64,000 nt of DNA from Sipunculus nudus. Lineage: Eukaryota > Annelida > Sipuncula > Golfingiida > Sipunculidae. Shown one piece after another: positions 14,001 through 63,426 of this stretch. The DNA lies in assembly GCA_026874595.1 (NCBI GenBank), contig CM049307.1, positions 52,511,370 through 52,575,369 of the forward strand. Direction: 5' to 3'. The position numbers and the translations under genes are program-made. The notes below the pieces were generated by a model. It had not been told where the DNA came from and searched no databases. It saw only the letters and a program-made list of their open reading frames with translations. Within the stretch, counting starts at the first letter, position 1; each line of letters begins with the position of its first letter.

Positions 14001-17000
14001 CCTGGAGGAGCTTGAGAAGCAGCACGCCCAGCTGCTGGAGGAAAAGAGCATCTTGTCTGAGCAGCTCCAGGCAGAGACTGAGCTGTGTGCTGAAGCAGAG
14101 GAGGTGAGTGGGGAACATTGGAACAGATTTTATACTTTATTACATAGGTTGGAGCATTACCCTGTGATGCGATCATAACTCTTGTCAATACATTAAAATT
14201 TGTGAAATTGAGCAAAATAAAAAGTTATATTTCTGACATTTTAGAAATTTCTGAGTAAATTTCCCTCTTCATTATAAAATCAGATGACTAAATAATCTAA
14301 GTCCAGGGCTTACTTTATTAAGCACAAAAAAGTGAACTTCGTAAACAAGTATATATAAAAAAAATCCTGTATGGCAAGTAATAATTCTTGTGGGTAACTT
14401 GTCTGTCCATCTTTTCCTGCAAGTAACACCACTGTATATAAAATTGTACACCATATTTAAGAAAGAATCTTATTAGCCCCTAAATCGGTTTGTGCTCTGG
14501 TTGTAGTCTCGTGTGCGGTTGGCAGCCAAGAAGCAGGAACTGGAGGAGATTCTTCAAGACATGGAGGCTCGTATGGAGGAGGAGGAAGAACGAGCACAGA
14601 TCATGATCCAAGAACGTAAAAAACTCCAGGGAACCATCCAGGACCTTGAGGAACAGTATGTTATCATTATACAAATATAGTACAGCTTTAATTAAATGAA
14701 GTTCATGTATTGAGAATGTAAAAAAAAAATAAAGAACTCTAGGGAACCATCCAGGACCTTAAGGAACATTTTGTAATCATAATACAAATACAGTACAGCT
14801 TTAATTTAATTAAGTCTATGTATTGAGAATGTAAAAAAAAAAAAAAAACTCCAGGGAACCATCCAGGACCTTGAGGAACAGTGTGTCATCTAAATACAAT
14901 GTAGCAGTGCCTGAACTTAATTAAGGCCATGTACATCATTGAATAATGCACTTTTCAGTTCAAAATTTGCACAGTTTGGGAGAGCTCTGTACTAGTACCT
15001 ATGTTGGCATGAATTTGGGGATATATTTTTTATTCAAAGAAGACAGTATAAAAAGTTCTAGGCCAAAGTTGCAGGAACCATTCCTCTGACTACTGAGTGA
15101 AAATAATGTCTATTTCATTGAACTTTGTGACGTCACTTTTGTCTTGTAAACAGCTGTTGCAAGGAAAACCTTCTGTGTAGGAGAATTTTGTGGGCTCATT
15201 ATAATAATTAGGTCAAAAGGGTGGGGCATAAGTGCTCTGGTGGTGAGGTCAGTTGGTTGTAGAATTTGCCAGACCTACATGTTATTGCCAGCTGAAGACA
15301 GTGGTACATAATTATAACTTTTAACAGGTTGGAGGAGGAAGAACAAGCCAGACAGAAGCTGCAGCTTGAGAAAGTTGCTGCTGACTCAAAAATGAAGAAG
15401 CTGGAAGAGATGTTAGCTGTCCAGGAGGACTCCAATAGTAAGGTTAGAAGCTTTCTATATTTCATAAGTTAGATACCTATTTATCCCCAAATTATTTACT
15501 TTTAATTTTTTTGTATAAAGAACTTAATACCATAATCCAAGAATATTTTAATAATGTGGTCAAACAAAGGTCATAGAAACAGACTTGCATTTGTAAATTG
15601 AACTCTGAATAACAACAAGGACCTTCATTTAAACTTAGAATATAGTTTTGCCAGGTTTGTTAGGATGTCACACCATAACAGTTTACACTGTTGTGATCAA
15701 AGAGGTAAAACAGAAGTACGATTTATATGAGGGACACCAGTATTTAAAGGTAAATCAGGCACCATCGCATCTTTTCATTGAAGCTACATGTTGTGTCACC
15801 AGTATGACATGTGTTCTAATTTTACTTGACAGCTCGGTAAAGAAAAGAAGCACTATGAAGACCGTCTTGCCGAGATGTCAGCCAACTTGTCTGATGAGGA
15901 GGAGAAGGTCAAACAACTGAACAAACTCAAGAACAAATATGAAGCTATCATCGCAGATTTGGAGGAGAGGTTAAAGAGAGAACAACAGGTACACATTTTG
16001 CATGTTTGGATGGTGAAATAAAAAAACTATCAAGTAAAGGTTTAGGTCCTTTTAAAAATCATAATATATTAGGACAACTAATGAAGCTTCATATAAGACT
16101 AGTGGTATATAGAGTTCAGTAGGCCAATACAATTCTGTTAATCCTAGCCAAACTTCCCTTTTGTGTCAGTTAGGTATACATTTTCAAGACGATAATTTGT
16201 TCTCAAAAAAATTAATACTTTTGTCCATTAAATCCAGAGAGGCATTTATTGGCCTTTGTTCTTGCCTTGATTACTCATCTGGTCAGTTCCACAGTCATAG
16301 AGACAAATGGTTGTTGTGTTAAATTCCTCTGTTAAGCCTGTGATAATACTTTAAGCCTGAGATAATATTGTGATAAACCTGTAAAACAACATTGAAGTTT
16401 ACCCCCATCATTGCCACTTGACAGTACTGGGAGCAATATAAGTAAAAAAACTTATGGACAAATTTCTTTCATATTACTACACCTGAAGAAACCCTTGTGG
16501 CTTGCCAGGTGCCGGTATATGCTTCTGAAGATGGGGGCCTATTTAAAGGGGGGGGGGGATTAATTGTCTGGGGATACTGTGGCATCTGCAATGCCAAGAA
16601 ATGTCTAGTTTTATCTATTTTACGTGGTTTACGCTAGATACATATAGTCAATGAGGTGATCTTCACAAAAATGTATAAAATTATGTTGTATCAGTTGTTA
16701 CACATCCTACATCCTGTTTCAGCTGCGACAAGAGTTAGAGAAGATAAAGAGGAAGTTGGAAACTGAGCTTAATGATGTGAAAGAACAGCTAGCTGAGAAA
16801 TGTCAGCAGCTAGAAGACCTACAGGCGTCACTTGCTAAACGAGAAGAAGAAATACAACAGGCACTGAACAGGTATGGGAGTTTTACTAACTGACTCAATA
16901 GGTTCCATGCCTGGTAATATAAGGTATACTACTAAGTATATCATGTTGAATACAGCATATTGTGCGGTTTTCTTTTTTGGTATAGTAGAAAAGAAATTTT

Positions 17001-32000: not shown

Positions 32001-35000
32001 TTCGGAACGTGGCCGTCGTGCTGTGGAGGCTGAGCGTAACGAGCTGCAGGATGAAATCAACAGCAGTGCTGCCAGCAAGAACTCGCTGATGGAGGATAAG
32101 AGACGGCTGGAGCAGAAGATCGCAGCGCTGGAAGAGGAGCTTGAAGACGAACAGAACAACTCTGAAATCCTCGCTGACCGCGTCAGGAAGAATGGCATGC
32201 AGGTATGCTAGGACCTGCTACAGGTCTAGGATAGATAAGTTTTCATCAACTGTTGCATAGTAAATGCTAACATATTTAATTACATGGATCCTTATCAAGA
32301 TATAATCATACAGATACACATTCAACTCAAGCAGCTGTAGAATAAATACACTCTGATCTGTAGTTCAGAGTCAGTACTTCCTGTAATGAATTTTGAAAAT
32401 ATAAAATTAATTGATCAGGTAGTATGATTGTAAAGCAGGAAGACCCTGAATCTGCAGTAGAGGGAGTTTCCAGGGTCCTGAACAGTTGAGGGGTTAAAGC
32501 CAAGAATGCTTGGCTCTCCCTCCTGGCGACCCGGGTTAGTTTCCTGATGTGGTCATGAGAGTGGGTTGTATTTGCCCATCTAAAGCTGGTTGTTTTCTCA
32601 GGGTTCTCCGGTTTCCACCACTTCTACAGACTATAGGAACACCATCATCTGAGCCATAAAGAGTGCTTTGATTAGGTCAGAAAATAGTAATGCTTAAAAT
32701 GTACGACATTATGTACAGTTAAATGTCATTAAACATGAATAATTTGTACATGGAACTGCTGTGATGTTATAACCCAACATTCCACCACACTATGAATAAA
32801 TCTTTTCACAAAGGACTTGGCACATCACTAAACTTAATTCAAATGATTAATTTGTTTTGCATGCTGCATGGAAGCTAGTGTTCTCATAAAGATTGAAAGA
32901 CAGATGGCAAAAGTCAGGAAGGTTGGGTCAACCAGGTCAACAGAAACTCCCATTCCTCTTAAGTATGTTCATTTTACAGTTGATAAGTGATATCTTTCTT
33001 TTCTGTTCAAGTGTTATCATTTCTCTCAATACAAAGGTTGAATCACTGACCAACGATTTGGCAGCTGAGCGCTCTCAGACCCAGAAGTTAGAAAATGGTC
33101 GCATGTTGCTGGAACGACAAAACAAGGAGCTTAACAGCAAGCTACAAGAGATGGAGCAGGCATTGAGGACTCGCTCCAAGGCCACCATTGCTGCTCTGGA
33201 GAGCAAGATCGCTAACCTTGAAGAACAACTGGAAATTGAGGCTAAGTGAGTGACTGTGTACACTAACTGGTCCAAATTTGATGTAACAGTATTAATAGCT
33301 GCCAGGTACAGAAAAAATTAAGGTAAAACCCTGACCAGCATAATAACTGCAGTGAAACCCTGCATGCATTACATATTTCAAAGCCAGTGTAAGTATTGTA
33401 TTACTAGGTTAGTCATGTTGAACATTAATGATATTTCCTTGAATTATCAGCTGGGACCCAAAAATAGTGGTCATGCTGGCTCAGGGTTTATATTAAACTG
33501 GTTGTCTTTAGTAATTTCCTGTATTTGTAGATATATACACAGGCAATCTTACCCTGTAGCGCCTTTATAGCAACATTATAGCAACATCAGGAAGATGGGG
33601 AAATTCTGACATGAACAGGCCCAGTGGATGCAGCATGTAAAGAATAATACTGATAATGTCTGTGATATCAGACTGAACATGCTCACTTTTTTGTTTTCTC
33701 AGGAGAAAGTAGTCAGCAGTTTCTTGACCCTAATTGATGTTGATTTCTTCAGAACAGTATATTTTTAAGAGAATCAGGATGTCAAATCCTCAATAAGTTG
33801 TACCTTATTTCAAGGGAGAGGCAAGTACTAGGCAAGAACAACCGTAAACTTGAGAAGAGACTTAAAGAATTCATCATCCAAGCAGAGGATGAGAAGAGAC
33901 ATGCTGACCAGTACAAGGAACAGGTATTAATCAGAATTCAGAATAAACCATCATGTATCTCCATTAAATACAGTGATACCTGGAACTGGTACAGAATTGC
34001 TGCTACCTAGTTACTTGGGATTGCTTTAAAATGTTATTGTGTTGTCCAGTTTGATACTCCGGTTAAAGACGTTTTTGTGGTAAACATTAATACCAGTGCT
34101 ACACCCAGATGTTCATATGTTGCACACAATGCATACAACTTTATTTCTCGTGTACATTTGTTATTTGATACAAAAAAATGTACCTGTTCATTTTGACAGA
34201 GTTGGTATACTATTAAAAATGTTTTCTCTTTTTTTTTTGGGGGGGGGGGGTTCAATTGATATTAAATTATCCCCTAATCACCTTAAGTTTGAAATAGGAC
34301 CTATCAATTTAAACAATATTGGAGGCTGCTTGAATTTTAAATCAATACTTGTTTGCTCTTCAGCAGTTCGAAGTAATTGTAATAAATCAGTCTTGCAGAA
34401 AGTTACTTCTTATTGAAACAAAGTAATGAAATGATACATGACTGAAGCTAAATAAAACCATGTATAATTTCAGGTTGAGAAGGTGAATTCTCGTGTCAAG
34501 GCTCTCAAGAGGCAACTTGATGAAGCTGAGGAAGAGTGTACTCGTATCAACGCTCAGAGACGTAAACTTCAACGCGACCTGGACGAAGCTGTCGAGCAGA
34601 GCGAGGCACTCCAGCGTGAAAACGATACACTGAAAAGTAGACTTAGGAGTGGGGATAAGTTGGGGTGAGTTACCCTTCGTATAAGTTTTAAAGTCTTGCA
34701 AGATCCACCTCCGAAGATCCCATATCACGCTAGGTTGTCGACCTCCAAACTTATCAAGTATAAAACCTCATACAGTGGACCCAGGCTTAGGGGACCTAAG
34801 GGAAGGCGACCACCTGCTGTTGCAATTGTTTTTCCCTGTCACTGACTGTTTTTCAGTTAAAATGTACTTGGTTAAGTGACCACCTGCCAAGCAGCTTTCA
34901 TTAAAGTCCATAATTTCACCTGCTTTATACGATGATGTTCTAAACACACTGACCACGCAAGTGAGCCATAATAACACTTGTTGGTTGTTATTGGTGTTTC

Positions 35001-38000
35001 TAGTTTTCTATAGATGGCACTGTTGGCACTCTCACCATTGAGATAAGTAGTCATGTTACATTGCCCCAATCTGCCTTGTGCTCCCCATATGCATTACATT
35101 GTCCCTCCCTTCATGGGAAGAAGCAATATAAAAACTACTGATATAAGATTTATTAATTCTACAATGGTTATTCAATAAAACAGTAGAAACAAGTGGAATC
35201 CTGATTAACCTGGACTTCATGACTTGTGTTTTACAATATGAAGAATTCACAATCCAGTGATATAAGAAACATATTTTGTTAATTAGTATATTCAAAAGTT
35301 TGTTGGATGGCAGCAATAATTCAACTTTCAAAGTGATTTGGTTACTCTAATACTGTGTTCTGAACTGGAATAAGGTTCTAGACAGTGGAATGGTAACAAG
35401 TTGTAATTTGTAACGAATATTCACGTCCCTTGATTAATTACCAGCTGCAATTCTGACCATTTTTTTTTTCGGCAGCAAGGGTGGTCGCTAAAATAGGGAC
35501 CACTGTAACTAACAAGTATGTTGGTTTGTTTACTTGATATTTGCTTAATACCCTAAATATCTTGCATTGTATCATTTAAGTTATCCCGCTTTATTTTTCT
35601 GTTGCACAGTACTGCACAGTTTTCTTTATTATTTTGATTTTTTGTAAAACGTCAAAATTTAACCCTTTGCACCTTGTGATGTTAATACATAAGCACTCGT
35701 TTCATTTCTTATTACCTGGCCCTGTAGCTTTTAAAGTATTTAATGCTTTGGCCTAATGTTTCTGTGACAGAAAGCGCCAGACTTCACCTGAGTAGACAGC
35801 GGAGGTATTGCAGGTACATGGAATGACCTCTTGTCAAAATGCTGCACACTCTATGCATGTCTGTCTGTCACACTCTCAGCAAGACACAAGGCATATGATG
35901 TATGATATTCATCATACAATTAGCTGAACTAAAACCTACTTAGAATATTCAGAAACAGTGATGAAAGCAATACCACATTAGCCAATACTGTATAATTTTA
36001 CTCGTTTTAAAAAGAAAATCTCAGAAAAGGAAGTTGGCTTTAATTATCTGGTTGGTCAAAATGTCAGTTTTAATATTGTGGTATCATATTCATATGTTAA
36101 GTACCTTAGATCCGCGTTTTGCTGCTGCACATCATCTAATGGTTGCACCCCATGTTTGTAAAATACCTGGAAGACTCCATCAAGGGAGTAAAAAATACCC
36201 ATAACCTTACTTAATGGCTGCACCACATTCTCACTACCATGACGTTCCATTGCCGGGTGGTGTATCGGATACAACGAAAAAAACTTCTTTCCTCAAAAGC
36301 TAGGCTGCAGCTAGGAACGCTGTGGTATGCTGATATGCTTTCAGGCGTAACAGTTTTGGGAAACTGAACAAATTGTAACTGTGTATGTTGCTTGGCTTTG
36401 TTATTAATTTAATTAATTGGTTAAACAGCCTGATCTACCCAATTAGACCAGATGACAATTTGTGCAGTTTATGACGACTCATCCAAGATGATCCTTGTAG
36501 GGCCACAAAATTAATTTGACACATCCTTGAATGCCGGAGAATCTTGCACCTTCAACTTGGCTAATTAAACATCAGTGTGACATCAAAGCATTGTATACAA
36601 CAATGGTACATGTATTTAGACTTATACATCATTGGTCATTTAACAACATAACCTTTAAATAAATGACATCCATGTCGGTAATCATACTGCCTGAACACCC
36701 CGGGTCCTGCTGATCAAAATTATGCAAAATGGTGTCCGAACCGTCTACCAGCAAAACATGCCATATAAAATGATAAAGGAACTAGGGGGCCTTTGGGAAT
36801 CTTGCGCCTTTGCCCTGGCTAATTAAATTTCAATGGGACATCAAAGCATTATATAAGCTAGCGTTACTCTATGTGATAAACTTTTATTTAGACTCTATAC
36901 AACGTCGGTCAATTAACAACCTTGACAAAACCTTTGAATAAACGAATCACGCTTCGATGTTCACACAGCTTGCACGCGTACTCCCAGGGTCCTGTTGATA
37001 AAAATATATGCACATTGGTGCTCAAACCATCTGCTGGCAAAATGTGCCATATTAAATGATTACGGAACTAGCTCGTGAGGTTATGACCTTTTGAGCGCCA
37101 TCTATTGACAGTGTGATGAACGAAGAAGTATCTGAACATGAACACAGGTTTAATTGCTGAAGAACAAATGGTCTTTGGTTATCTATTGTTTTACAGTTTA
37201 TTTTAAAGAAAGGATATGTTCCAGAAATATCTTAAATTAATGTTTTACCGGTATTGCAGCCATGCTCAATTTTAGGTACAACCGTTAGAGGGCATAATTT
37301 GGTGAGGGAATATATATCTTTTATCAGTCATGGCGTGAAAATGGACGTTGTTGACTTACTCAGAAAAGTTTGTTAATACATATAAGCCTGTTTAAAATAT
37401 TAATTTTACATTTTATAAAATTAACAGTGAATAAAATCAATACCCAAATATGCAGTATCATTATATATACATTCTTAGTATTAACTTCCTCCTTCCTCTA
37501 TCTGTTATAGCCCCTTGCGCCTCAGCGGGCCATCGAGTCTCTTGTACACATTTGGTTTTAGACTAACCTACGTTTTATAGCAGCATTCCTTGTCTAGTAA
37601 AATTAGTCAGGATTTTCAGCTGTAAGTCTTATTTTATGGCCGCGGCAGCAAAATGTGGATCCACGGTTTGAAAATACCAGATTTTAGCATCAGTGAAACA
37701 CAAGACGAATAGATTAATGATCAACGTAATAACTGATATTTCATGGCACTTGTAAAAGTTGGTAACAGTAAAACCTTATGCACAGAAGCATACTAATACT
37801 TAATTGCACATCACAGGATTTGTATACAGATTTGTTGATGCTGCATATATACATAAGAAGTACTTGTGCAATAAGTGCATCATTTCTGACCTGAGGCCAT
37901 GTGCAGAAAATAAATGTAAAACCACTAGCATCTTACCGACTTGGTGCCAAGATTTTGTGTTTATTTAGATGTACCTATAAATGCTGGTTTCCATGTGAGC

Positions 38001-41000
38001 AACTGGGCATGACCATATATATGTCATAGATTGCTTTTTTTTTGTATGTTACTGGGCCAATGATGTTTTGCTTTCCTTGTGAATGAACTTAATATGCATG
38101 AGATCCTCCACCATAGAGAGGCATGTTTCACAGATGTGTGCACAGATTGCAGTATCTTTATGTCAGGTATACCAATTGTGGTGGATTCCTTGGATTCCTC
38201 TAAGATTTCCTAGAATACTTAAATTGTTCCACTTTAAACTTTTGTTGCAAAAATTGGTACTCTGACCACAGGTGCTCCTTTGTACCAACCAAGTAGTATC
38301 ATTTACAGAAACTTGTAACCACATTTTCTGTATTCATCAGTTGTCATTTCTACTTGTATACATCAAAATATGTGTTGTCTCAGAAGTGGATATAATACAT
38401 CTGGATTTAAAAGTGAAACCTGTTTAAGTCCAACAAGCAGATAAAACACATTAAACACATCTTAGGTTTGACACAAACACATTTTGCTTTGTAATGATTA
38501 AGGTGAAGACTGTGACAAGTTGGGTATATACATTAATTATGATCCACACAGTGAGATTTTGATGATCACTCATATTCATGGAAGTACTGGGTGGGGGGGG
38601 GGGGCATCATGTAGAATGTGAATCATGGTTTATTCCTGTATTGCTTGTTCTATGTTCTATTCTGTGTGTGCTGTGTGCAAACAAAACTGTCCTTAACCTG
38701 CTGCTTGAAACAAGTGATCATTCAAAATGATCTGTCTGATATGGTGATCATATCAGTACTTCTAATGTATTTTTTGCCTGTATCAGACCACTGATTATTT
38801 ATTGGGAAATTAAAAGAAAACCTGACTGTGTAAAGTTTCATCTAAAAATTTAATACACTGACAAATGAACTGTCAATTAACCAGGTGCCACAAATATAAT
38901 TCATTGGCTTAAGAGTAATCTGTAGTTATAGTATATCAGGTGCCACCTGGTGGCAATTTTTCAGACTAGGATAATCAAGGCCCTCTTAGTTTTAAAATTT
39001 GATAGTCTATTTCTGTGATAAAATCAATTACTGAATCAGGTTATCTGATACAGATTATTGAACTAATATCTGACTAATGTGTGACTGCATGTTTATCAGC
39101 ATTATGGCCTCATACAGTGATCCTTAATTTTTTTTTTTTTTTTGCCAGTTTAAGACTTTCTTCTACTAACGTTTGATACCTGTAGACTGTCATGCATTTC
39201 TGCAGTTTCAGGTGACAGATTAGTAGTTATTAAATAACAGTCATCTTCAGTCCTGTTTTAATTAACCTGAAATTTGAATTAATTAACATTTGACTATAAT
39301 ACAAAGAAGTAGTTTTTGTTTTATTATCATTTTAATTATAGGATGCTATATTTAATCAAATTTAAACTTGCCTGTATTTTTTTATTTGTTCACACCAGGT
39401 CTTTTTCAGTGAATTTATCTATGAAAATATACTTAGCATCAAACTGAATACATGAAAATAAACTTGTCACAGGTCTTGAGTGGAAACCTTATTGAAAAGT
39501 TTACAATTTGACCCAAAAATAATTTGTTAATTTTACTCTGCACACCATGATTCTTGTGTGAAAATAATGGTCACCTGAGGTTGTACAAGTGGGTGTTTTT
39601 GTTATAAATTTACCTTTTCCAACCATCAAAAGATAATATATCACCTGTTTTACCTTATATACTAGATACCTATAATACTAGAACTCTTACTCACTGGCAG
39701 CATTCACACCTTTTGTTACATTATTTATACTATAACCTTCTCTTCAGTAAATACTTGTGTTTGAAAGTGTTGGACATTGTGTGACACTGGAGGATTTTGT
39801 ATTTGCTTCAGTAATTTTTACCATCTTTATATTTATGATGGAGCTGTTTTTAGCTCAGCTGACTATAAGTCATCTGAGCTATAGTCGTGGTCCATTGTCC
39901 GTCGTCCTTCCGTCTGTCTGTCTTTCCGTCTGTCCGGATGTCCGTCCGTAAGACTGGCATGTTTCGACACCATTGGACCTAGGAATCTGATATTCGGCAT
40001 ACAGTTAGATGTCCCCAAAATCTCCTACCATGCCGAAAATTGGGTCAATAGGACTTTGTTCCTTCGAGATATTAAGGAAAAACCTCAATTTTTATTAGAA
40101 ATCTATTTTTACTCTTCAGGACTGCCTAATATCAAAACCACTCATCTGGTTTTCTTCATATTTACCATAAATATTACTCTATATAGTTCCTATGAACATG
40201 CGAGAAATTAAGTTAGTATTATTTAATTTAAAAAAGTTATGGGCCCAAACATAATGGACTTTGTAAAAAATCAGGAAAGATATTTGGTCACTTAAGACCA
40301 AAAGTGTTAAAGATAGGGACTTTATTTCAGTAATACAACTTTAATTAATCAAAATTTAATTGTATACCAAAAAATAAATCAAAATCTGTTCAATTTTTTT
40401 AAATATTGGCAAAATTATAAAGTTGGTACCTTAAATTTTGCCCAACTGTGGCCACGGCACGTTTTTTTCCTGTAAGTACTGTGGATTTAATTTTCACAGC
40501 ATGTACACATAAGTATTTAATATGTTAAAATCTGAAATTTGAAAATAAAAGCTGCAAAATTAGGCTAGTTATTGAATTTTTTTTAGGCTGTTGTTGTATC
40601 CCCTTACATTGTCAAGCAGTCCACTTTGATGACTGTAGGTCATTCAGTGCACATCTCTATGCTCCCCAGGCTGTTGGCATAATGTTAGATGTCCCCAAAA
40701 TCTCCTACCATACCAAAGATTGGGTCATTAGGACTTCATTCCTTCGAGATATTAAGGAAAAACCTCCGTTTTCCATAAAAAAAAAAACTTGGTTACACTT
40801 CAAGGCTGCCTAATATCAAAACCACTGATCTGTTTTTGATCATATTTAGTATTCACATTCTTTCATACATTTTCTATGAACATACCAAAAATTAGGTCAG
40901 TATTGGGTATTATTTTGAAGTTATGGGCCCAAATATAATGCAATTTTTAAAAAATCAGGAAATATATTTACTCACCTAACATGAGAATTGCTGAACCTAG

Positions 41001-43589
41001 AGACTTTTTTTCAAGAATATAACTTTATTTAATCAAGATTCAATTGTTTACCAAAAATTAGATCTGAATTTTGCAAATTTTTCAAGTTATTAGCATAAAT
41101 AAAAAATCAATACCTTAAATTTTGTCCAACTTTGGCAATGGCATTTTTTTTCCCTGTAAGCACTGTTGATTTAATGTTCACTGCATATATACATAAGGAA
41201 TTAATCTTTTAAAATCTGAAATTTCAAAGAAATTGATTGGAAAGAATAGCTTTTATTCACATTTTCATACACCATGTCAAGTGTTGTTTACATCTAGCCC
41301 ACCTAGTAGTACAGCCTTCACTTGCATTATGTAACTCACCCCAGGCAGCTTGCCTTGGCTCAGCTTGGCCACTACCAGCAGGCTTCCCCTCTGCCCTGCA
41401 CTCCCCCCCCCCCTCCCCCCCCCCCCCCCCCCCGATGGTGCATAAACTAGATGAATGTTATTATTTTCTGTATTTGATTCATTCTTATTCTAGGCTATGC
41501 TACATTTTAGATTTTGTATTGTACCACCAGGGTTACAATGATTAAAGTGTCCATTTAATTGTGTCCACAAAGTGGTGTATTGCTATGAAAGTGTGGATGT
41601 TCATCAGATAAGTAATTTCTTACTTCAGAAGAGTAAAAACTTCACCAGGTGTGAAATTGACTATTAATTCCAGTAATAAATTAAAACTGGGATAGTAATT
41701 AGCACAATGATATTGTTTGTCCCTCATTCAACCAACAGTGTGTATACTTTATTTGAAAAGATGTTTTTATTTTATCAAATTTACTGAATCTTTTATTTTA
41801 TTTTGGTGAATAAAATTAAGCATGTACTGAAAACTCCAATGTGCAAAACTGTTTAATAGTGATTCAAGGAATATTCTTGTAGATGCCATGTGTGGCATTA
41901 TTTTCTTTTAAATTCAGTTTAAACATTTATGATTTAAAAACAATAAAATATATACATGTGTATGCATATTATGACCCAATATGAGCTACACTCTGGATAT
42001 ATAATGATTGCAACTTTTGCAACAATTCTAATATTTTAACTTCTAGTTTCACTTTTTTTACTCTGTATATATAATGATTGCAACTTTTGCAACAATTCTA
42101 ATATTTTAACTTATATTTTCAGTTTTTTTTTTATTAAAAATTTATAAAACCTGTAAATAAAAAAAATGATTCAGATAAAAACTTCTTAATGGAAAAAGTG
42201 GATATGCTAAAAAAATAGGCTTATATATAAACTTAAATGCATTATTCCCTTGAAAGTGAAATAAAGGTATTAGTCCATTCTGTCCACTTGCCTGTCCATC
42301 TGTAAATTTTCATATGCATCACAGTATCTCAAAACTTTTACTGTTTTTCTTCATGACAGTCTTGTCATAGTCTTAGTTTGCAATCATATATTTAGATCTT
42401 TACTATAACCAAATAGGAGGGCCCCTTTCCTCTTAGCTTTTCATATTCTTATATAAATGAAAAACATTACAATAGAATATTTCTACATCCACCTTCGTGC
42501 TGCCCTCACTTTTCCCTTCTCCGAACCCCATCCCAAAGTCAGCCTGAGTAAGCAAGAAGAAGATGAATCAGATATATTCATACTTTAATATTTTGTATAA
42601 CTATTCGTCCATAGGTACCTATGTACATGCCAGAAATTTTGTCAATATTGTGTAATATGTAGACATAGTGGGCATCACAATAATGTATCTTGTCAAGACT
42701 AAAGAGATATTGTGTCATACAGTCACAAATTCATAAATCACTTCATCAGCATAGTTAATCATAACATCATATCTGTCAAATTGAAAGCTTGCAGACTACC
42801 ATACACTTTAGATCCTTCAACAAATAGCCTTATCATCATTCTACTACTGCTTATACTGCTGTCATTGCATTCATATTTGCTCAAATATATCACAATTTTC
42901 AACCCCTCCTAAATAAATAAAAAATAAACCACTATATTTTACTCTATTTATCCATCAGTCAGGTAATTTCATTTATCATTTACTCACATATTACATTACA
43001 ACATGTCCATGATATTCATAAGCTTTATCCACTCGATATAGTATCACAGTGGATGTAGTATCACATTTTTAGTCCAGTCACGATCAGCTGAGAGCCGTGA
43101 CCCATGGGTCCCTTGTCTTGGTTTCGGTGCAGTTTTAACATATTTCAGGTGTACTGAAAGCAGCATTCTTTTGATTGGATAAAAAATCCTGCAGTCTATA
43201 TCGCTCCATTTTATACTTAACCAATCCTTAGATGCTTTGCATTTTGTATTTCAGAGATATGTGAAACTGCACCTCAACTGTTTTGTGTATAATTATGTAT
43301 ATAATTAAATCTTTACACCATGTTAGACTTGCTGGTATTGAACTGTCATCAAATATCATTTTCCCCACATTTAGTGGGGCTATGTGCAATAACAACCACA
43401 TTCCTACCAGGAATCCTAGGTATCTTATGTTGTCTTATCATAACTGATTAAATAATCTTATCTGTCCACAGTCGCACACGTTTGGGCCGCTCTAGTTATC
43501 TCAGCGGAAGGTCCAGTATGGTTCCAACAACAGTGCCTAGTGATGAAGGATCAGGGGAAGAACAAGCTGCTGAGAATGAGAAAGAATGA
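1933..43589 (+). CDS. MYH9/10-like: Non-muscle myosin II heavy chain, 5'-partial gene model of 28 exons
   Basis: This gene encodes the heavy chain of conventional non-muscle myosin II, the actin-activated ATPase that forms bipolar filaments for cytokinesis, cortical tension and cell movement. Twenty-eight exons with GT-AG borders and matching phases join into 1588 residues. In order they carry the upper and lower 50K parts with switch II DIAGFE (about 82-87), loop 2 (about 246-263), the SH2 and SH1 cysteines (316, 326), two IQ motifs for essential and regulatory light chains (about 400-450), an unbroken heptad rod (about 460-1545) and a 40-residue tailpiece. Full-length family members are about 1960 residues, so roughly 370 N-terminal residues lie upstream. 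Phrases such as [20 protein letters not shown] and [18 protein letters not shown] match the non-muscle/smooth class rather than striated myosin. I found no frameshift or stop. The exons are listed one by one below. Confidence 0.97.
2633..4727 (+). mobile_element. Non-autonomous element with 145-bp satellite core
   Basis: The ends AGGGCCCCGC (2633-2642) and GCGGGGCCCT (4718-4727) are perfect 10-bp inverted repeats. Inside, after a GTCCGTCCATCCGTCC tract, run about 13 copies of a 145-bp unit (gattttctttcgcac ... cagctttcccaaattcac). A partial second head occurs at about 4211-4275. No transposase and no clear target-site duplication are visible. The layout resembles pearl-type bivalve elements. 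It fills most of the intron between exons 1 and 2. Confidence 0.65.
2706..4570 (+). repeat. 145-bp tandem array
   Basis: Successive gatttt(c)ttt anchors fall at 2851, 2996, 3141, 3286, 3431, 3576, 3721, 3866, 4011 and 4156, each exactly 145 bp apart. Copies differ by substitutions but not by length in this stretch. Confidence 0.9.
4892..5044 (+). CDS. Myosin exon 2 (switch II)
   Basis: Residues 40-90, phase 0 on both sides. It holds [15 protein letters not shown] and ends in switch [11 protein letters not shown]. Switch II senses the gamma-phosphate and couples ATP hydrolysis to lever movement. Confidence 0.96.
5843..6013 (+). CDS. Myosin exon 3 (relay helix)
   Basis: Residues 91-147. It carries [19 protein letters not shown], the relay helix signature that follows switch II in all myosins. 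It ends at LLEK before a gtgcaa donor. Confidence 0.96.
6413..6577 (+). CDS. Myosin exon 4 (lower 50K)
   Basis: Residues 148-202. It contains [14 protein letters not shown] and ends HYAGK. Family members have the same block between the relay helix and loop 2. Confidence 0.96.
7011..7125 (+). CDS. Myosin exon 5 (lower 50K)
   Basis: Residues 203-240 plus the first base of codon 241. It contains the conserved [14 protein letters not shown] and ends before a gtaagg donor. Confidence 0.95.
7648..7829 (+). CDS. Myosin exon 6 (loop 2 and actin-binding face)
   Basis: Residues 241-301. Loop 2 is short and mildly basic ([17 protein letters not shown]). After it come [14 protein letters not shown] and [13 protein letters not shown]. 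The ending NHEKK is typical of non-muscle and smooth-muscle heavy chains. A large repeat element begins only 17 bp after this exon. Confidence 0.96.
8133..10560 (+). repeat. ~336-bp tandem array centred on GGTGGCGCCACC
   Basis: The marker falls near 8185, 8522, 8859, 9194, 9530, 9868, 10203 and 10532. The 12-bp palindrome GGTGGCGCCACC is intact in the first six units and degraded in the last two. Confidence 0.88.
10700..11460 (+). repeat. ~140/280-bp tandem array
   Basis: Units with catatctcgg and a ggtggcgccac marker occur at about 10865, 11005, 11144 and 11289. Alternate units resemble each other most, giving a 280-bp dimer. Confidence 0.6.
12157..12348 (+). CDS. Myosin exon 7 (SH1/SH2 helix, converter)
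   Basis: Residues 302-365. The two reactive cysteines of [12 protein letters not shown] fall at residues 316 and 326, the standard ten-residue spacing of SH2 and SH1. The converter begins with GFPNR. Confidence 0.96.
12856..13016 (+). CDS. Myosin exon 8 (converter end, IQ1)
   Basis: Residues 366-418 plus two bases of codon 419. It has [20 protein letters not shown], then the first light-chain site [12 protein letters not shown], a variant IQ motif for the essential light chain. Confidence 0.95.
13111..13200 (+). mobile_element. Head fragment of the Helentron/pearl-like family
   Basis: tagctcagctgactgaagta and a ccgttgtccatctggc tract resemble the heads of the larger copies. No matching tail follows before exon 9. 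Confidence 0.45.
13407..13515 (+). CDS. Myosin exon 9 (IQ2)
   Basis: Residues 419-455. The second IQ motif reads [18 protein letters not shown]. It binds the regulatory light chain, through which MLCK and ROCK act in this class. It ends LFTK, just before the head-rod junction. Confidence 0.95.
13900..14103 (+). CDS. Myosin exon 10 (head-rod junction, S2)
   Basis: Residues 456-523. VKPLLQV carries the junction and heptads start directly after it. It ends [11 protein letters not shown], strongly conserved in non-muscle heavy chains. Confidence 0.95.
14507..14655 (+). CDS. Myosin exon 11 (S2 coiled coil)
   Basis: Residues 524-572 plus two bases of codon 573. It is a coiled coil with [11 protein letters not shown] and an acidic EEEEE patch. 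Its last 37 bases and the first part of the following intron are repeated twice more downstream (see the repeat at 14619-14935). Confidence 0.94.
14619..14935 (+). repeat. Triplicated exon-intron border of exon 11
   Basis: The exon's last bases (ctccagggaaccatccagga) and about 75 bp of intron recur at 14737 and 14849, giving a ~112-bp unit with three copies. Copy 2 has lost the donor (gaacattttg) and copy 3 keeps a GT (gaacagtgtg). Both copies lie downstream of the true donor at 14656. Confidence 0.85.
15328..15442 (+). CDS. Myosin exon 12 (S2 coiled coil)
   Basis: Residues 573-611, including [20 protein letters not shown]. It keeps the heptad register of the previous exon. Confidence 0.94.
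15833..15988 (+). CDS. Myosin exon 13 (rod)
   Basis: Residues 612-663. It has [14 protein letters not shown] and [16 protein letters not shown]. Phase 0 at both ends. Confidence 0.94.
16723..16871 (+). CDS. Myosin exon 14 (rod)
   Basis: Residues 664-712 plus two bases of codon 713. It is highly charged coiled coil with [15 protein letters not shown] and SLAKREEEI. Confidence 0.94.
17605..17749 (+). CDS. Myosin exon 15 (rod)
   Basis: Residues 713-761, ending [12 protein letters not shown], a recognisable block of non-muscle myosin rods. The acceptor is ttttttag. Confidence 0.94.
18342..18554 (+). CDS. Myosin exon 16 (rod)
   Basis: Residues 762-832, from [14 protein letters not shown] to [20 protein letters not shown]. 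It is an exact multiple of three (71 codons). Confidence 0.94.
18945..19450 (+). repeat. Dispersed repeat with ~140-bp internal period, copy 2
   Basis: It is homologous to the repeat at 165-780, with the same CTGTCTGTTAACT head and blocks at about 19090, 19239 and 19381. It lies in the intron between exons 16 and 17. Confidence 0.6.
19548..19754 (+). CDS. Myosin exon 17 (rod)
   Basis: Residues 833-901 (69 codons), ending LNEKVSKLQ before a consensus gtaagt donor. Confidence 0.94.
19755..21013 (+). other. Introns between exons 17 and 19
   Basis: The introns at 19755-20324 and 20583-21013 are plain AT-rich introns. I see nothing further in them. Confidence 0.55.
20325..20582 (+). CDS. Myosin exon 18 (rod)
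   Basis: Residues 902-987 (86 codons). It has [17 protein letters not shown] and [13 protein letters not shown], both standard for the central rod. Confidence 0.95.
21014..21181 (+). CDS. Myosin exon 19 (rod)
   Basis: Residues 988-1043 (56 codons), with [20 protein letters not shown]. The intron after it is 5.3 kb and full of repeat elements. Confidence 0.95.
21503..23010 (+). mobile_element. Helentron/pearl-like element, copy 2 (head-truncated)
   Basis: It starts abruptly at catagtcgtggtccattgtcc without the TAGCTCAG head and holds two units about 670 bp apart (ataatgttagatgtc near 21590 and 22260). It ends in a region shared with 40570-40680. A family-type tail at 26380-26415 may be its displaced end. 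Confidence 0.55.
23450..26065 (+). mobile_element. Helentron/pearl-like element, copy 3
   Basis: The full head tagctcagctgactataag with a small hairpin (agctcag ... ctgagct) is followed by a GTCC tract. The tail is cgtcgtgacccataggtccc then ttgtt. It is 2.6 kb, highly similar to copy 4 along its length, and lacks coding capacity. Confidence 0.7.
26380..26415 (+). mobile_element. Isolated tail of the Helentron/pearl-like family
   Basis: cagccgagcgatgtgaccca and tgggtcccttgtt match the family tail, but no own head lies directly upstream. It may be the far end of copy 2, split by insertion of copy 3. Confidence 0.45.
26499..26611 (+). CDS. Myosin exon 20 (rod), between two large direct repeats
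   Basis: Residues 1044-1080 plus two bases of codon 1081. It has [20 protein letters not shown] and [10 protein letters not shown]. At 113 nt it is not a multiple of three, so skipping or deleting it would shift the frame. A large element ends 434 bp before it and a closely similar one starts 46 bp after it. Confidence 0.95.
26658..29276 (+). mobile_element. Helentron/pearl-like element, copy 4
   Basis: It has a head like copy 3 and a tail of gtgagcgccatgacccatgg then gtcccttgtt. It is 2.6 kb and starts 46 bp after exon 20. An open frame seen antisense in copy 3 is broken here. Confidence 0.7.
29340..29830. repeat. Possible degraded interspersed repeat
   Basis: A ctgtctgtccatctgtcact tract lies within sequence like other repeat heads in the window (gaggtca-type and atcaaaggtca words). 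Borders are not visible. Confidence 0.3.
30015..30195 (+). CDS. Myosin exon 21 (rod)
   Basis: Residues 1081-1141. [19 protein letters not shown] and [11 protein letters not shown] identify the segment clearly. The acceptor is aattatag. Confidence 0.95.
30640..30852 (+). CDS. Myosin exon 22 (rod)
   Basis: Residues 1142-1212 (71 codons), starting [15 protein letters not shown] and continuing through [19 protein letters not shown]. Confidence 0.95.
31359..31520 (+). CDS. Myosin exon 23 (rod)
   Basis: Residues 1213-1266 (54 codons), ending [11 protein letters not shown] before a gtgagg donor. Confidence 0.94.
31861..32202 (+). CDS. Myosin exon 24 (rod, longest exon)
   Basis: Residues 1267-1380 (114 codons), the longest exon in the window. 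It covers [34 protein letters not shown] and [20 protein letters not shown]. The light-meromyosin part of the rod drives filament assembly. Confidence 0.95.
32460..32680 (+). repeat. SINE-like unit
   Basis: ggcgacccgggttagtttcc resembles a tRNA-type B box. It is followed by gggttctccggtttccacca, a phrase common in invertebrate SINEs. No clear A box or flanking duplication is seen. It lies between exons 24 and 25 on the sense strand. Confidence 0.45.
33037..33245 (+). CDS. Myosin exon 25 (rod)
   Basis: Residues 1381-1449 plus two bases of codon 1450. The acceptor is aatacaaag, weaker than most in this gene. [17 protein letters not shown] matches the family. Confidence 0.93.
33246..34473 (+). 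other. Introns between exons 25 and 27
   Basis: The introns at 33246-33814 and 33924-34473 hold a G run at 34241-34250. I see nothing else I can support. Confidence 0.5.
33815..33923 (+). CDS. Myosin exon 26 (rod)
   Basis: Residues 1450-1486, with [20 protein letters not shown] and HADQYKEQ. It lies in the assembly-competence part of the tail. Confidence 0.94.
34474..34664 (+). CDS. Myosin exon 27 (rod end)
   Basis: Residues 1487-1549 plus two bases (GG) of glycine codon 1550. It has [19 protein letters not shown] and ends the coiled coil at [12 protein letters not shown]. Its gtgagt donor faces an 8.8-kb intron and can pair with the final exon or with the candidate cassette at 35771. Confidence 0.94.
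34773..35505. mobile_element. Tc1/mariner-type MITE
   Basis: The ends CAGTGGACCC and GGGACCACTG form inverted repeats with one mismatch and are flanked by TA on both sides, the target duplication of the Tc1/mariner/pogo superfamily. It is about 733 bp with no transposase frame. It lies in the last myosin intron, 266 bp before the candidate cassette exon. Confidence 0.6.
35771..35813 (+). CDS. Candidate alternative C-terminal cassette exon (not part of the main model)
   Basis: This is a 43-nt segment bounded by tttctgtgacag and cag/gtacat, with a branch-site-like cctaat about 16 nt before the acceptor. Joined to exon 27 it completes the same glycine codon (GGA instead of GGT), adds KRQTSPE and stops at TAG (35793-35795). 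The result would be a 1557-residue isoform without the normal tailpiece. RQTSP holds a basophilic and a proline-directed serine. That it is used is inference; no transcript is available here. Confidence 0.45.
36539..37060. repeat. Two diverged copies of a ~258-bp unit
   Basis: gaatcttgc(a/g)cctt ... ggctaattaaa ... gacatcaaagcatt recurs 258 bp apart. The pair is more GC-rich than its surroundings. Confidence 0.6.
37061..39849 (+). other. Last myosin intron, middle part
   Basis: AT-rich DNA with a G run near 38592-38603 and a T run at 39129-39144. A CTCF-like motif lies at 38943-38954. No gene seen on either strand. Confidence 0.5.
38943..38954 (-). promoter_or_regulatory. CTCF-like core motif
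   Basis: On the minus strand it reads CCACCAGGTGGC, which fits the CTCF core CCASYAGRKGGC at every position. Whether it is bound is unknown. Confidence 0.3.
41402..41433. repeat. C-rich homopolymer tract
   Basis: Cytosine runs broken by a single T, with clear potential for G-quadruplex formation on the minus strand. Confidence 0.85.
41990..42125. repeat. 70-bp direct duplication
   Basis: ataatgattgcaacttttgc begins at 42001 and again at 42071. The two units are almost identical, so the duplication is recent. Confidence 0.85.
43472..43589 (+). CDS. Myosin exon 28 (non-helical tailpiece and stop)
   Basis: Residues 1550-1588 and TGA at 43587-43589. A basic serine-rich half ([15 protein letters not shown]) is followed by an acidic half ([17 protein letters not shown]) with an SGEE casein-kinase-2 type site at serine 1577. 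Tailpieces of this class are phosphorylated to control filament disassembly. Confidence 0.95.
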
Positions 43590-46184: not shown

Positions 46185-49100
46185 GTCCCCAGGTGTCCTG
46201 GTAGGAACACCAGTCTGAAATCCATTAAATTTCAAGCAAGTGTCCTAATGGGTACACCTGTATAAAGCTTATAAAAATGTCTCACAAGTAACTTAGTAGG
46301 TTAACCTGTCTCGGGTCCATTAAATGTCCCACAAGTATCCTGGTGGTACACCTGTTAAAGGTCCATTAATTTTAAAATGTCCAACAAAACTCTTGGTGGC
46401 ATACCTGTCTCAGGTCCATTAAGATATCACATATTCCAGTGGGTACACCTGGACAAGGTCCATAAAAATATTCTGGTGGATGCACCTGTCCAAGGTCCAT
46501 TAAAATATCTCATAAGAACACTAAACAGTCATGGTACACCTGTCCAAGATCCATTAAAATATCATCCATTAAAGTTAAAGTATCCTGGTCAAGTACACTG
46601 TCTCCTAGAATGTCCTAAAGTGTCCTGGTCTACCAGAATGTCTTCAAGTGCACCTGTGTAAGGTTCATCAAAGTATCTTTGTCAAACACCCCTGTACAGG
46701 GTCTAATAGAACTTCCTCAAGTATCCTGGTCAGGTACAACTGTCCAAGGACCACAAGAATGTCCTCAAGTATCCTTGTCAAGTACATCTGTCAAAGGTCC
46801 ACTAGAATGTCAAGTATCCTGGTCAAGTATGCCTGTCCAAGAATGCCAAGTGCACCTGTGTATGATGTCCTCTATCCTGAAATAACATCTGTCCAAGGAC
46901 CAAAAGAATATCCTTAAGTGTCCAAGAATGTAAAGTGCACCTGTGTAATGTTCATTATGATGTCCTCTAGTTTTCCTGGTCAATTACATCTGTCCAAGGA
47001 CCACAAGAATGTCCAAGTATCCTAGTCAAGTACACCTGTCCAAGTGGCACAAGTGTGTCAAGTATCCATCTGTCCAAGGTCCACTCTGATGTCCTCAAGT
47101 ATCCTGGCTAAGTACACCTGTCCAAGACCACAAATGTGTCCTTATCAATCTGTCAAAAGTCCACTAGAATGTCAAGTATCCTGGTCAAGTACACCTGTCC
47201 AAGAATGTCAAGTGCACCTGTGTATGATGTTTTCTTCAGAAATAACATCTGTCCAAGGACCACAAGAATATCCTCAAGTGTCCTGGTCAAGTGCACCTGA
47301 CCAAGGTTCACAAGAATGTCCTCAAGTATCCTGGTCAAGTTCATCTATGAAAGGTCCACTAGAATGTCAAGCATTCTGGCCAAGTACACCTGTCCAAGTG
47401 CACCTTTGTAAGGTTCATCATGATGTCCTCTAGTATCCTAGTCAAAAACATATGTCCAAGGACCACAAGAATGTCTTCAAATATCCTGGTCAAGAACACC
47501 TGACAAAGATCTAGAATGTCAATTGCACCTGTGTAAGGTTCATTACGATGCCCTCTAGTTTTCCCAGTCTAGTACACCTATCCAAGGTTTACTAGAATGT
47601 TGAGTGCACCTGTGGAAGGTTCATTATGATGTCCTCAAGTATCTTGATCAAGCACACCTGTCCAAATTCTCCTTGTATGTCAAGTATCCTGGTCAAGTAC
47701 ATCCGTCCAAAGTCTCCTAGTATGTCAAGTATCCTGATCAAGCACACCTGCCAAAGGTCTACTTGTATGTCAAGTATCCTGGCAAAGTACACCTGTCCAA
47801 GGTCTCCTAGTATGTAAAGTATCCTGGTCAAGTACGTATGCCAAAGTCTCCAAGAATGTCATGTATCCTGGTCAAGTACATCTGTCAATGGTCTCCTAGT
47901 ATGTCAAGTATCCTGGTCAAGTACATCTGTCCATGGTCCAAAAGAATTACCTCAAGTATCCAGGTCATGCACACCTGTCCAAGGTCTCCTTGAATGTCAA
48001 GTATCCTGGCCAAGTACACCTGTCAAAGGTCTCCTGGTATGTCAAGTATCCTGGTCAAGAACGTCTGCCCCAGGTCAACAAGAATTTCTTCACCCTGGCT
48101 AGGTACACCTGTTGAAGAGCCAAAAGTGTGTCAAGTATCCATCTGTCCAAGGTCTGCTAGAATGTCTTCAAGTATCCTGGTCAAGTACATCTGTCAATGG
48201 TCTCCTAGTATGTCAAGTATCCTGGTCAAGTACATCTGTCCATGGTCCACAAGAATTTCCTCAAGTATCCTGGTCAAGCACACCTGTCCAAGGTCTCCTT
48301 GTATGTCAAGTATCCTGGTCAAGAACATCTGTCCAAGGTCTCCTAGTATGTCAAGTATCCTGATCAAGCACACCTGCCCAAGGTCTACTTGTATGTCAAG
48401 TATCCTGGTCAAGAACATCTGTCCCAGTCCACAAGAATTTCCTCACCCTGGCTAGGTACACCTGTTGAAGAGCCACAAGTGTGTCAAGTATCATTCTGTC
48501 AAAGGTCCACTAGAATGTCTTTAAGTATCCTGGTTAAGTACACCTGTCCATGAGCCACAAGTGTGTCAGTATCCATCTGTCAAAAGTCCACTAGAATGCC
48601 AAGCATTCTGGTCAAGTACACCTGTCCAAGTGCACCTTTGTAAGGTTAATCATGATGTCCTCTAGTATCCTAGTCAAAAACATATGTCCAAGCACCACAA
48701 GAATGTCTTCAAATATCCTGGTCAAGTACACCTATCCAAGGTCTACTAAAATGTCAGTGGCACCTGTGTAAGGTTCATTATGATGTCCTCAAGTATCTTG
48801 GTCAAGTACACCTGTCCAATGTCTCCTTTGTATGTCAAGTATCCTGGTCAAGTACATCTGTCCAAGGTCTCCTAGTATGTCAAGTATCCTGGTCAAGTAC
48901 ATATGCCAAAGTCTCCAAGAATGTCAAGTATCCTGGTGGTGCACCTGTTCAAGGTCCATTAATTCTAAAATGTCCAACAAAACTCTTGGTAGCATACCTG
49001 TCTCAGGTCCATTAAGATTAAAATATCTCATAAGAACACTAATCAGTAATGGTACACCTGTCCAAGGTCCATTAAAATATCCATTAAAGTTAAAGTATTC

Positions 49101-51555
49101 TGGTTAAGTACACCTGCCCAAGGTCTACTAGAATGTCTTCAAGTGCACCTGTGTAAGGTTCATCAGAATGTCCTCAAGTATCTTTGTCAAACAACCCTGT
49201 ACAGGGTCTAATAGAACGTCCTCAAGTATCCTGGTCAGGTACACCTGTCCAAGGACCACAAGAATGTCAAGTATCCTAGTCAGGTAGATCTGTCCTAGGT
49301 CAACAAGAATGTCCTCCAGTATCCTGGTCAAGTACATCTGTATAAGGTCTGCTAGAATGTCAAGTATCCTGGTAAAGTTCACCTGTCCAAGAATGTCAAG
49401 TGCACCTGTGTATGATGTCCTCTATGATGTCCATCTGTCCAAGGTCCACAAGAATTTCCTCAAGTTTCCTGGCAAAGTATACCTGTCCAAGGTCTAGTAT
49501 GTCAGGATTCCTGGTCAAGTACATCTGTCCAAGGTCTCCCAAGATGTCAAGTATACTGGCCAAGTACATCTGTCCAAGGTCCACTAGAATGTCCTCAAGT
49601 ATCCTGGTCAAGAATACCTGTGCAAGGTCTCCTTGTATGTCAAATATCTTGGCCAGGTACACCTGTCCTAGGTCTCCTAGTATGTCAAGTATCCTGGTCA
49701 AGTACATCTGTCCAAGGTCCACTGGAATGTCCTCAAGTATCCTGACTAAGTACATCTGTCCAAGAGCCACAAGTATGTCAAGTATCCATCTGTCCAAGGT
49801 CCACCAGAATGTCCTCAAGTATCCTGGTCAAGCACACCTGTGCAAGGTCTCCTTGTATGTCAAATATCTTGGCCAAGTACACCTGTCCTAGGTCTCCTAG
49901 TATGTCAAGTATCCTGGTCAAGTACATCTGTCCAAGGTCCACTAGCATTTCCTCAAGTATCCTGGCTAGGTACACCTGTCCATGAGCCACAGTGTGTCAA
50001 GTATCCATCTGTCCAAGGTCCACTAGAATGTCCTCAAGTATCCTAAGTACACCTGTCCAAGAGCCAGAAGTGTGTCAAGTATCCATCTGTCCAAGGTCCA
50101 CCAGAATGTCCTCAAGTATCCTGGTCAAGCACACCTGTGCAAGGTCTCCTTGTATGTCAAGTATCTTGGCCAAGTACACCTGTCCTAGGTCTCCTAGAAT
50201 GTCAAGTATCCTGGTCAAGTACATCTGTCCAAGGTCCACTAGTATTTCCTCAAGTATCCTGGCTAGGTACACCTGTCCATGAGCCACAAGTGTGTCAAGT
50301 ATCCATCTGTCCAAGGTCCACTACAATGTCTTCAAGTATCCTGGTCAACCACACCTGTCTAAGGTCTCCTGATATGTCAAGTATCCTGACCAAGTACACC
50401 GGTCTAAGGTCTCCTAGTATGTCAAGTATCCTGGTCAAGTACATCTGTCCAAGGTCCACTAGAATTTCCTCAAGTTTCCTGGCTAGGTACACCTGTCCAA
50501 GAGCCACAAGTGTTTCAAGTATCCATCTGTCAAAGGTCCACTAGAATGTCCTCAAGTATCATGGTCAAGCACACCTGTCAAAAGTCTCCTAGTATGTCAA
50601 GTATCCTGGTCGAGTACATCTGTCCAAGGTCTCCTAGTATGTCAAGTATCCTGGTCAAGCACACCTTTCCAAGGTCTACTAGAGTGTTGTCGAGTATCCT
50701 GGCCAAGTACATCTATTCAAGGTCCATTAGAATGTCCTCAAGTATCCTGGTCAACACACCTGTCCAAAGTTTCCTAGTATGTCAAGTATCCTGGTCAACT
50801 ACATCTGTCCAAGGTCTCCTAGTACGTCAAATATCTTTGCCAAGTACACCTGTCCTAGGTCTCCTAGTATGTCAAGTATCCTGGTCAAGTACATCTGTCC
50901 AAGGTCCACTAGAATGTCCTCAAGTATCCTGGTCAACACACCTGCCCAAGGTCCACAAGAATTTCTCCAAGTGCCCTATTCAAGTACACCTGCCCAAGTT
51001 CTAAAAAATATCAAGTATCCTGATCAAGTATCCATCTGTCCAAGGTCCACTAGAATTTCCTTAAGTATTCTGACTAGGTACACTTGTCCTAGAGCCACAA
51101 GTGTGTCAAGTATCCATCTGTCAAAGGTCCACTAGCATGTCTTCAAGTATCCTGGTCAAGCACACCTGTCCAAGGTCTCCTTGTATGTCAAGTATCCTGG
51201 CCAAGTACATCTGTCCAAGGTCCACTAGTATTTCCTCAAGTATCCTGGTTAGGTACACCTGTCCAAGGTCTCCTAGTATGTCAAGTATCCTGGTCAAGTA
51301 CATCTGTCCAAGGTCCACTAGAATGTTCTCAATTATCCTAAGTACACCTGCCCAAGTTCAACTAGAATATCAAGTATCCTGGTCAAGCACACCTGTCCAA
51401 AGTCTCCTTGTTTGTCAAGTATCCTGGTCAAGTACGGCTGTCCAAGGTCCACTAGAATTTCTCTAAGTGCCCTAATCAAGTACACCTGCCCAAGTTCAAC
51501 TAGAACATCAAGTATCCTGGTCAAGTATACCTGTCCAAGGTCCATTAAAATACCC
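46185..51555. repeat. 5.4-kb minisatellite of 45- and 48-bp units
   Basis: The unit is gtc(ctc)aagtatcctggtcaagtacacctgtccaaggtc plus a variable end; the optional ctc makes 48 instead of 45 bp. There are roughly 115 units. Because both lengths are multiples of three, long open frames of 15/16-residue repeats occur in several frames on both strands, up to 164 residues. None has a convincing start, signal or uniform frame. Units are more degenerate at the edges (46185-46700) than in the middle. It lies between two convergent genes. Confidence 0.92.
49780..50540. repeat. ~220-bp higher-order repeat inside the minisatellite
   Basis: The landmark agtatccatctgtccaaggt falls at 49781, 50000, 50078, 50298 and 50518, showing a repeated block of about 220 bp made of four to five basic units plus one shortened block of 78 bp. 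Confidence 0.7.
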
Positions 51556-63221: not shown

Positions 63222-63426
63222 CTGCAATGACGGTAAATCACAACTATATTGTTCTGAATTTTGCTAAAGAGAAATTGGTGGTAGGCAAGTGAAATTAAAG
63301 TGTTAATTGGGAGACTATTTTATTATATAAATTTGGTCCACAGATCATTTGTACAAGTAGAAATTTAGTCAGGTAAAAGCCCTATGATAAAAATATTTTC
63401 TGTAATATTAATCCCTGCAGTTTAAA

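Follow-up and report, generated by a model that had tools for sequence, protein, structure and literature searches.

Introduction

Two myosin tail forms are described in vertebrates, the long tail of SM1 and the short tail of SM2, and the relevant parts of the same source hold the vertebrate tail to be important in filament assembly (PMC13102872). Phosphorylation of NM-2A by CK2 at S1943 is described in the sections cited of PMC3535348. Alternative exons of the same myosin class include the loop-1/loop-2 cassettes of MYH10 and MYH14, as set out in parts of two reviews (PMC3535348; PMC11335295). These cassettes add residues to the motor domain and leave the tail untouched, whereas the exon considered here would alter the tail. 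Molluscan myorod derives from a muscle myosin gene. It is described, in the part of PMC4410989 that concerns it, as an alternatively spliced product of a myosin heavy-chain gene, and it carries a unique N-terminal domain on a rod, whereas the exon considered here would swap the tail.

A first-pass annotation of the window, the whole 64,000-nt stretch of Sipunculus nudus DNA analysed here, proposed that a 43-nt segment in the last intron of a myosin gene is a hidden cassette exon that would end the chain in KRQTSPE. The likeness to MYH11 is one of arrangement and class: in both genes, which belong to the same smooth/non-muscle myosin class, a short exon ahead of the tail exon would yield a shorter non-helical tail. 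The SM2 exon of vertebrate MYH11 measures 39 nt, against the 43 nt of the candidate, and KRQTSPE presumably shares little with the SM2 tail. The suggestion that the segment is an ancient equivalent of SM2 found no support. A literature search found no paper containing the peptide KRQTSPE, a strict search for a 39-nt SM2 exon found no paper, and nothing on point was found about invertebrate myosin tail isoforms in the literature searched. Relatives sought in viral and prokaryote genome collections gave 36, 184 and 177 pattern matches, of which 0 were confirmed.

Gene structure and the last intron

Much of a heavy chain gene for a smooth/non-muscle myosin II lies on the plus strand of the window. 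The gene model comprises 27 coding segments and 26 introns spanning 4.9-43.6 kb, and an additional motor exon lies around 1.93-2.05 kb. The model acceptors at 7648 and 33037 were preferred, for their better protein fit, to the slightly higher-scoring 7684 and 32980. The closest solved relatives were Myosin-10 (E = 3.4e-16), Myosin-11 (E = 2.7e-15) and Myosin-9 (E = 1e-12), ahead of the striated chains, the top full-length one of which among the solved relatives had E = 7.9e-4. These matches place the gene in the smooth/non-muscle class.

The last rod exon ends with ...DKL-GG in phase 2 and is followed by the donor GTGAGT. The last intron, at 8,807 nt, is the longest of the 26. The canonical tail that follows it, RTRLGRSS...ENEKE, has a basic serine-rich first half with a net charge of +4 and an acidic second half with a net charge of -6, in agreement with the earlier description of the tail. 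Reading through the donor at 34664 meets an instant stop (TTG GGG TGA), and the chain would then end in ...GDKLG-stop. This stop, together with 29 AATAAA/ATTAAA hexamers in the last intron, would suit a second chain end made by intron retention or intronic polyadenylation, but AT-rich DNA would contain such hexamers in any case. A search for other terminal exons with long open frames found no outlier among the 12 best of 135 acceptors. The coordinates of the features are collected in Table 1.

Table 1. Features at the 3' end of the myosin gene (positions are those of the window).
Feature	Position	Strand	Remarks
Last coiled-coil rod exon	34474..34664	+	Pfam Myosin_tail_1 match to profile end, E 3.7e-20
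Rival pseudo-exon, 40 nt, GKGGR*	35476..35515	+	acceptor 5.7, donor 7.8, both above the candidate's
Branch-like CTAAT	35753..35757	+	A at 35756, a short 14 nt to the AG
Proposed 43-nt cassette exon, G-KRQTSPE-stop	35771..35813	+	AG at 35769-35770; most likely a pseudo-exon
In-frame stop TAG, 18 nt upstream of donor	35793..35795	+	sequence
Competing AG within proposed exon	35798..35799	+	score 4.3 vs 0.1 for proposed acceptor
Proposed donor CAG/GTACAT	35811..35819	+	score 7.3
CAC triplets at 35845, 35847, 35869, 35871, 35885 (RBPMS-type; one CACN1-12CAC pair)	35845..35887	+	+32 to +74
TGCATG (RBFOX-type)	35854-35859	+	+41 from exon end
Rival pseudo-exon, 25 nt, immediate stop	36300..36324	+	top composite score in intron
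Canonical last exon, coding part	43472..43589	+	38-residue non-helical tail + stop

The window holds two large tandem arrays, one at 2707-4541 with about 10 copies of a 145-nt unit, and one at 7924-10406 with about 7 copies of a 337-nt unit, the latter inside the motor-domain intron of 4.3 kb. At 14617-14899 the 3' end of the rod exon 14507-14655 is repeated in the next intron as a 113-nt tandem unit in 2.5 copies, so that exon-like ends recur at about 14738-14772 and 14848-14884. The last intron holds a repeated element at 39996-41092, with two copies about 680 nt apart that are 76-87% alike. A minisatellite 4.5 kb long, built of units of about 45 nt (46987-51544), lies downstream of the myosin gene; several of its frames are open, and its repetitive ORFs reach 198 codons. 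On the minus strand, open stretches at 60893-61624 and 62799-63263 (243 and 154 codons) resemble exons of a second gene; neither matches Pfam at E 0.01, and for 62799-63263 a solved relative is absent at E 1.

The proposed cassette exon

The candidate lies, as annotated, in the intron that precedes the tail exon (34664 to 43472), and the letters of 35771-35813 are those claimed, with the donor CAG/GTACAT and a stop right after KRQTSPE. Three further arguments were put forward for the exon. An AG with a branch-like site is present, but the branch A lies only 14 nt from the AG and the acceptor is weak; a further branch-like TTAAT has its A 27 nt from the same AG. The claimed phase match to the rod exon means that the segment reads into an in-frame stop and no more than that, because an exon bearing a stop needs no downstream phase. 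Glycine is indeed encoded at the split codon in both alternatives, but the argument is empty, because GG followed by any base encodes glycine. Since neither the glycine nor the phase is informative, what is left for explanation is an AG, a GT and one in-frame stop.

Splice matrices were built from the gene's own 26 introns, as given by the gene model, and ranks were computed leave-one-out. The candidate donor is average, with 12 of the 26 real donors scoring lower. The acceptor, at 0.1 bits, is among the weakest, with a single one of the 26 real acceptors below it, and the sum of acceptor and donor exceeds that of 2 of the 25 real internal exons. Weak splice sites are common in real alternative exons, so that a real exon would be compatible with a background score.

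Under the 50-nt rule, a stop no more than 50 nt from the last junction is not expected to trigger nonsense-mediated decay. Because the TAG of the candidate lies 18 nt before the donor, decay of a transcript including it is not expected. This, with the in-phase reading to the stop and the average donor, would favour a real regulated cassette exon, in which KRQTSPE would replace the 38-residue tail by analogy with vertebrate SM2; the weak acceptor and the stronger AG inside the segment speak against such an exon.

Two other properties of the segment were considered and set aside. A repeat origin was rejected, as 34665-36300 matches itself alone within the window. A GC island was rejected as evidence of an exon: the candidate has 53% GC, a value reached by 4.8% of the 43-nt windows of the intron, and the raised GC extends past the candidate into the flank, to about 35886.

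Pseudo-exons and chance expectation

Pseudo-exons were counted in the last intron under two criteria. The strict criterion took segments of 15-200 nt in which both splice sites score at least as high as those of the candidate and the stop lies no more than 50 nt from the donor. It gave 5 pseudo-exons, candidate included. A set of 40 first-order simulations yielded 8.5 +/- 3.8, and the opposite strand of the intron 11; the three other introns longer than 2 kb gave 0, 1 and 0. The loose criterion took stop-bearing segments of 20-150 nt by their summed splice score, with a floor for each site. Here 54 pseudo-exons, the candidate counted, stood at or above the candidate level, where 200 order-2 simulations averaged 53.8. 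Control counts under the loose criterion were 85 on the opposite strand of the last intron, 257 in the other introns (50,482 bases, both strands) and 269 in downstream DNA (39,000 bases, both strands). The claim of a hidden exon beyond chance fails on these numbers, the splice signals being ordinary.

Should the gene have a second chain end at all, it might equally be sought elsewhere in the intron, at 35476-35515, at 36300-36324 or behind the AG before 35800. The segment 35476-35515 and three more pseudo-exons beat the candidate at both splice sites, and 36300-36324 leads the composite score described below, but all such pseudo-exons are likewise at background. An alternative end of this kind, intron retention and intronic polyadenylation included, is very improbable.

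Exon-like composition

Exon-likeness was scored by a 4-mer measure trained on coding exons, which in part reflects coding composition. The candidate exon proper scored 0.64 and ranked second among the 54 pseudo-exons, a result on the side of a real cassette exon; about 40% of the 43-mers from real exons score no higher than this. The top exon-like 43-mer of the intron (0.91) is 35764-35806, which overlaps the candidate and begins 7 nt upstream of it. The remaining three long introns, each scored with itself left out of the training set, had peaks of 0.81, 0.82 and 0.98, the peak of 0.81 falling inside a tandem array. Exon-likeness was therefore rejected as decisive evidence, as other long introns reach similar peaks.

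When splice and composition scores were combined, two segments of the last intron stood at or above the candidate level, candidate included. The candidate ranked 2 of 340, behind 36300-36324. The controls gave 72 such segments in 98,289 bases, equal to 6.5 per 8,807 nt. Of these, the opposite strand of the last intron supplied 6 and the remaining introns 28; the stretch 44.5-64 kb contributed 4 from one strand and 34 from the other. This control is uneven, with 34 of the 72 on one strand of 44.5-64 kb, a stretch that includes the minisatellite and perhaps exons of a further gene; the leanest control, 4 in 19,500 bases on one strand of the same region, corresponds to 1.8 per 8,807 nt. The composite count of 2 fits within the control range. 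In both splice and composition scores the candidate is at background level, which weighs against a real cassette exon.

Motifs downstream of the proposed donor

A TGCATG and five CAC triplets lie within 100 nt downstream of the candidate, a lead that speaks for an exon. Were the segment a real cassette exon, its inclusion might be tissue-specific, in smooth muscle by analogy, through RBFOX- and RBPMS-family proteins acting on this stretch. Among the 54 pseudo-exons, TGCATG occurs within 100 nt downstream in 4 and tandem CAC in 6, and both occur in the candidate alone. Both motifs were found at 2 of the 611 control pseudo-exons (85+257+269), and both together with loose exon-likeness at 0 of the 611 controls and in 0 of 200 simulations, by criteria set after the candidate had been seen. 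The two motifs occur together in 0.9% of 100-nt windows of intron sequence, the pair having been picked after the candidate was seen, and also at 1 of the 26 constitutive donors. These low frequencies overstate the case for the candidate, because the motifs were noticed after it had been inspected.

In mammals, RBPMS activates exons via CAC pairs downstream of them, as described in the sections cited of PMC6613909. Flnb H1 and Myocd exon 2a, smooth-muscle exons that RBPMS switches on in rat and human cells, have CAC motifs in the downstream intron as the candidate does, according to the same sections. Those two exons were tested in minigene and overexpression assays, whereas the candidate offers motif matches only; in Flnb, 12 CACs in large clusters were mutated, whereas the candidate has one tandem CAC pair (PMC6613909, sections cited). 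Myh11 has 0 occurrences in the main text of PMC6613909, and MYH11 SM2 was not found as a target of RBPMS or RBFOX in the portions of the literature searched. In the part of PMC9343278 concerned with motif enrichment, RBFOX motifs are enriched downstream of myocardin-activated exons, while RBPMS motifs are linked to skipped exons only, a point against a regulated cassette exon here. Taken with the evidence on both sides given above, a regulated cassette exon at 35771-35813 is unlikely.

Discussion

The segment 35771-35813 is probably a chance pseudo-exon, made of ordinary intron sequence. An AG and a GT would by chance flank a short in-frame stop within the 8.8-kb intron, and the transcript would join 34664 straight to 43472, so that the heavy chains would bear the 38-residue canonical tail. 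The candidate is presumably not spliced in.

If instead the segment were a cassette exon, the short tail would lack both halves of the canonical one, the basic half rich in serine and the acidic half with its CK2-type site, and filament assembly could be altered, as argued from the vertebrate forms. It is doubtful that this invertebrate has two smooth/non-muscle myosin II tails, one long and phosphorylatable and the other an SM2-like end of 7 residues produced via an RBFOX/RBPMS-type smooth-muscle splicing code. Were it so, splicing of one protostome gene would do the job that in vertebrates falls to duplicated genes together with SM1/SM2. Tail switching in smooth/non-muscle myosin II would then either predate the vertebrates or have evolved twice, and it would be tied to a shared smooth-muscle splicing code. 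The pseudo-exon reading, which we prefer, has a meaning of its own: a long intron readily yields plausible stop-bearing mini-exons, and the last intron of this gene holds 54 of them at the level of the candidate, itself included.
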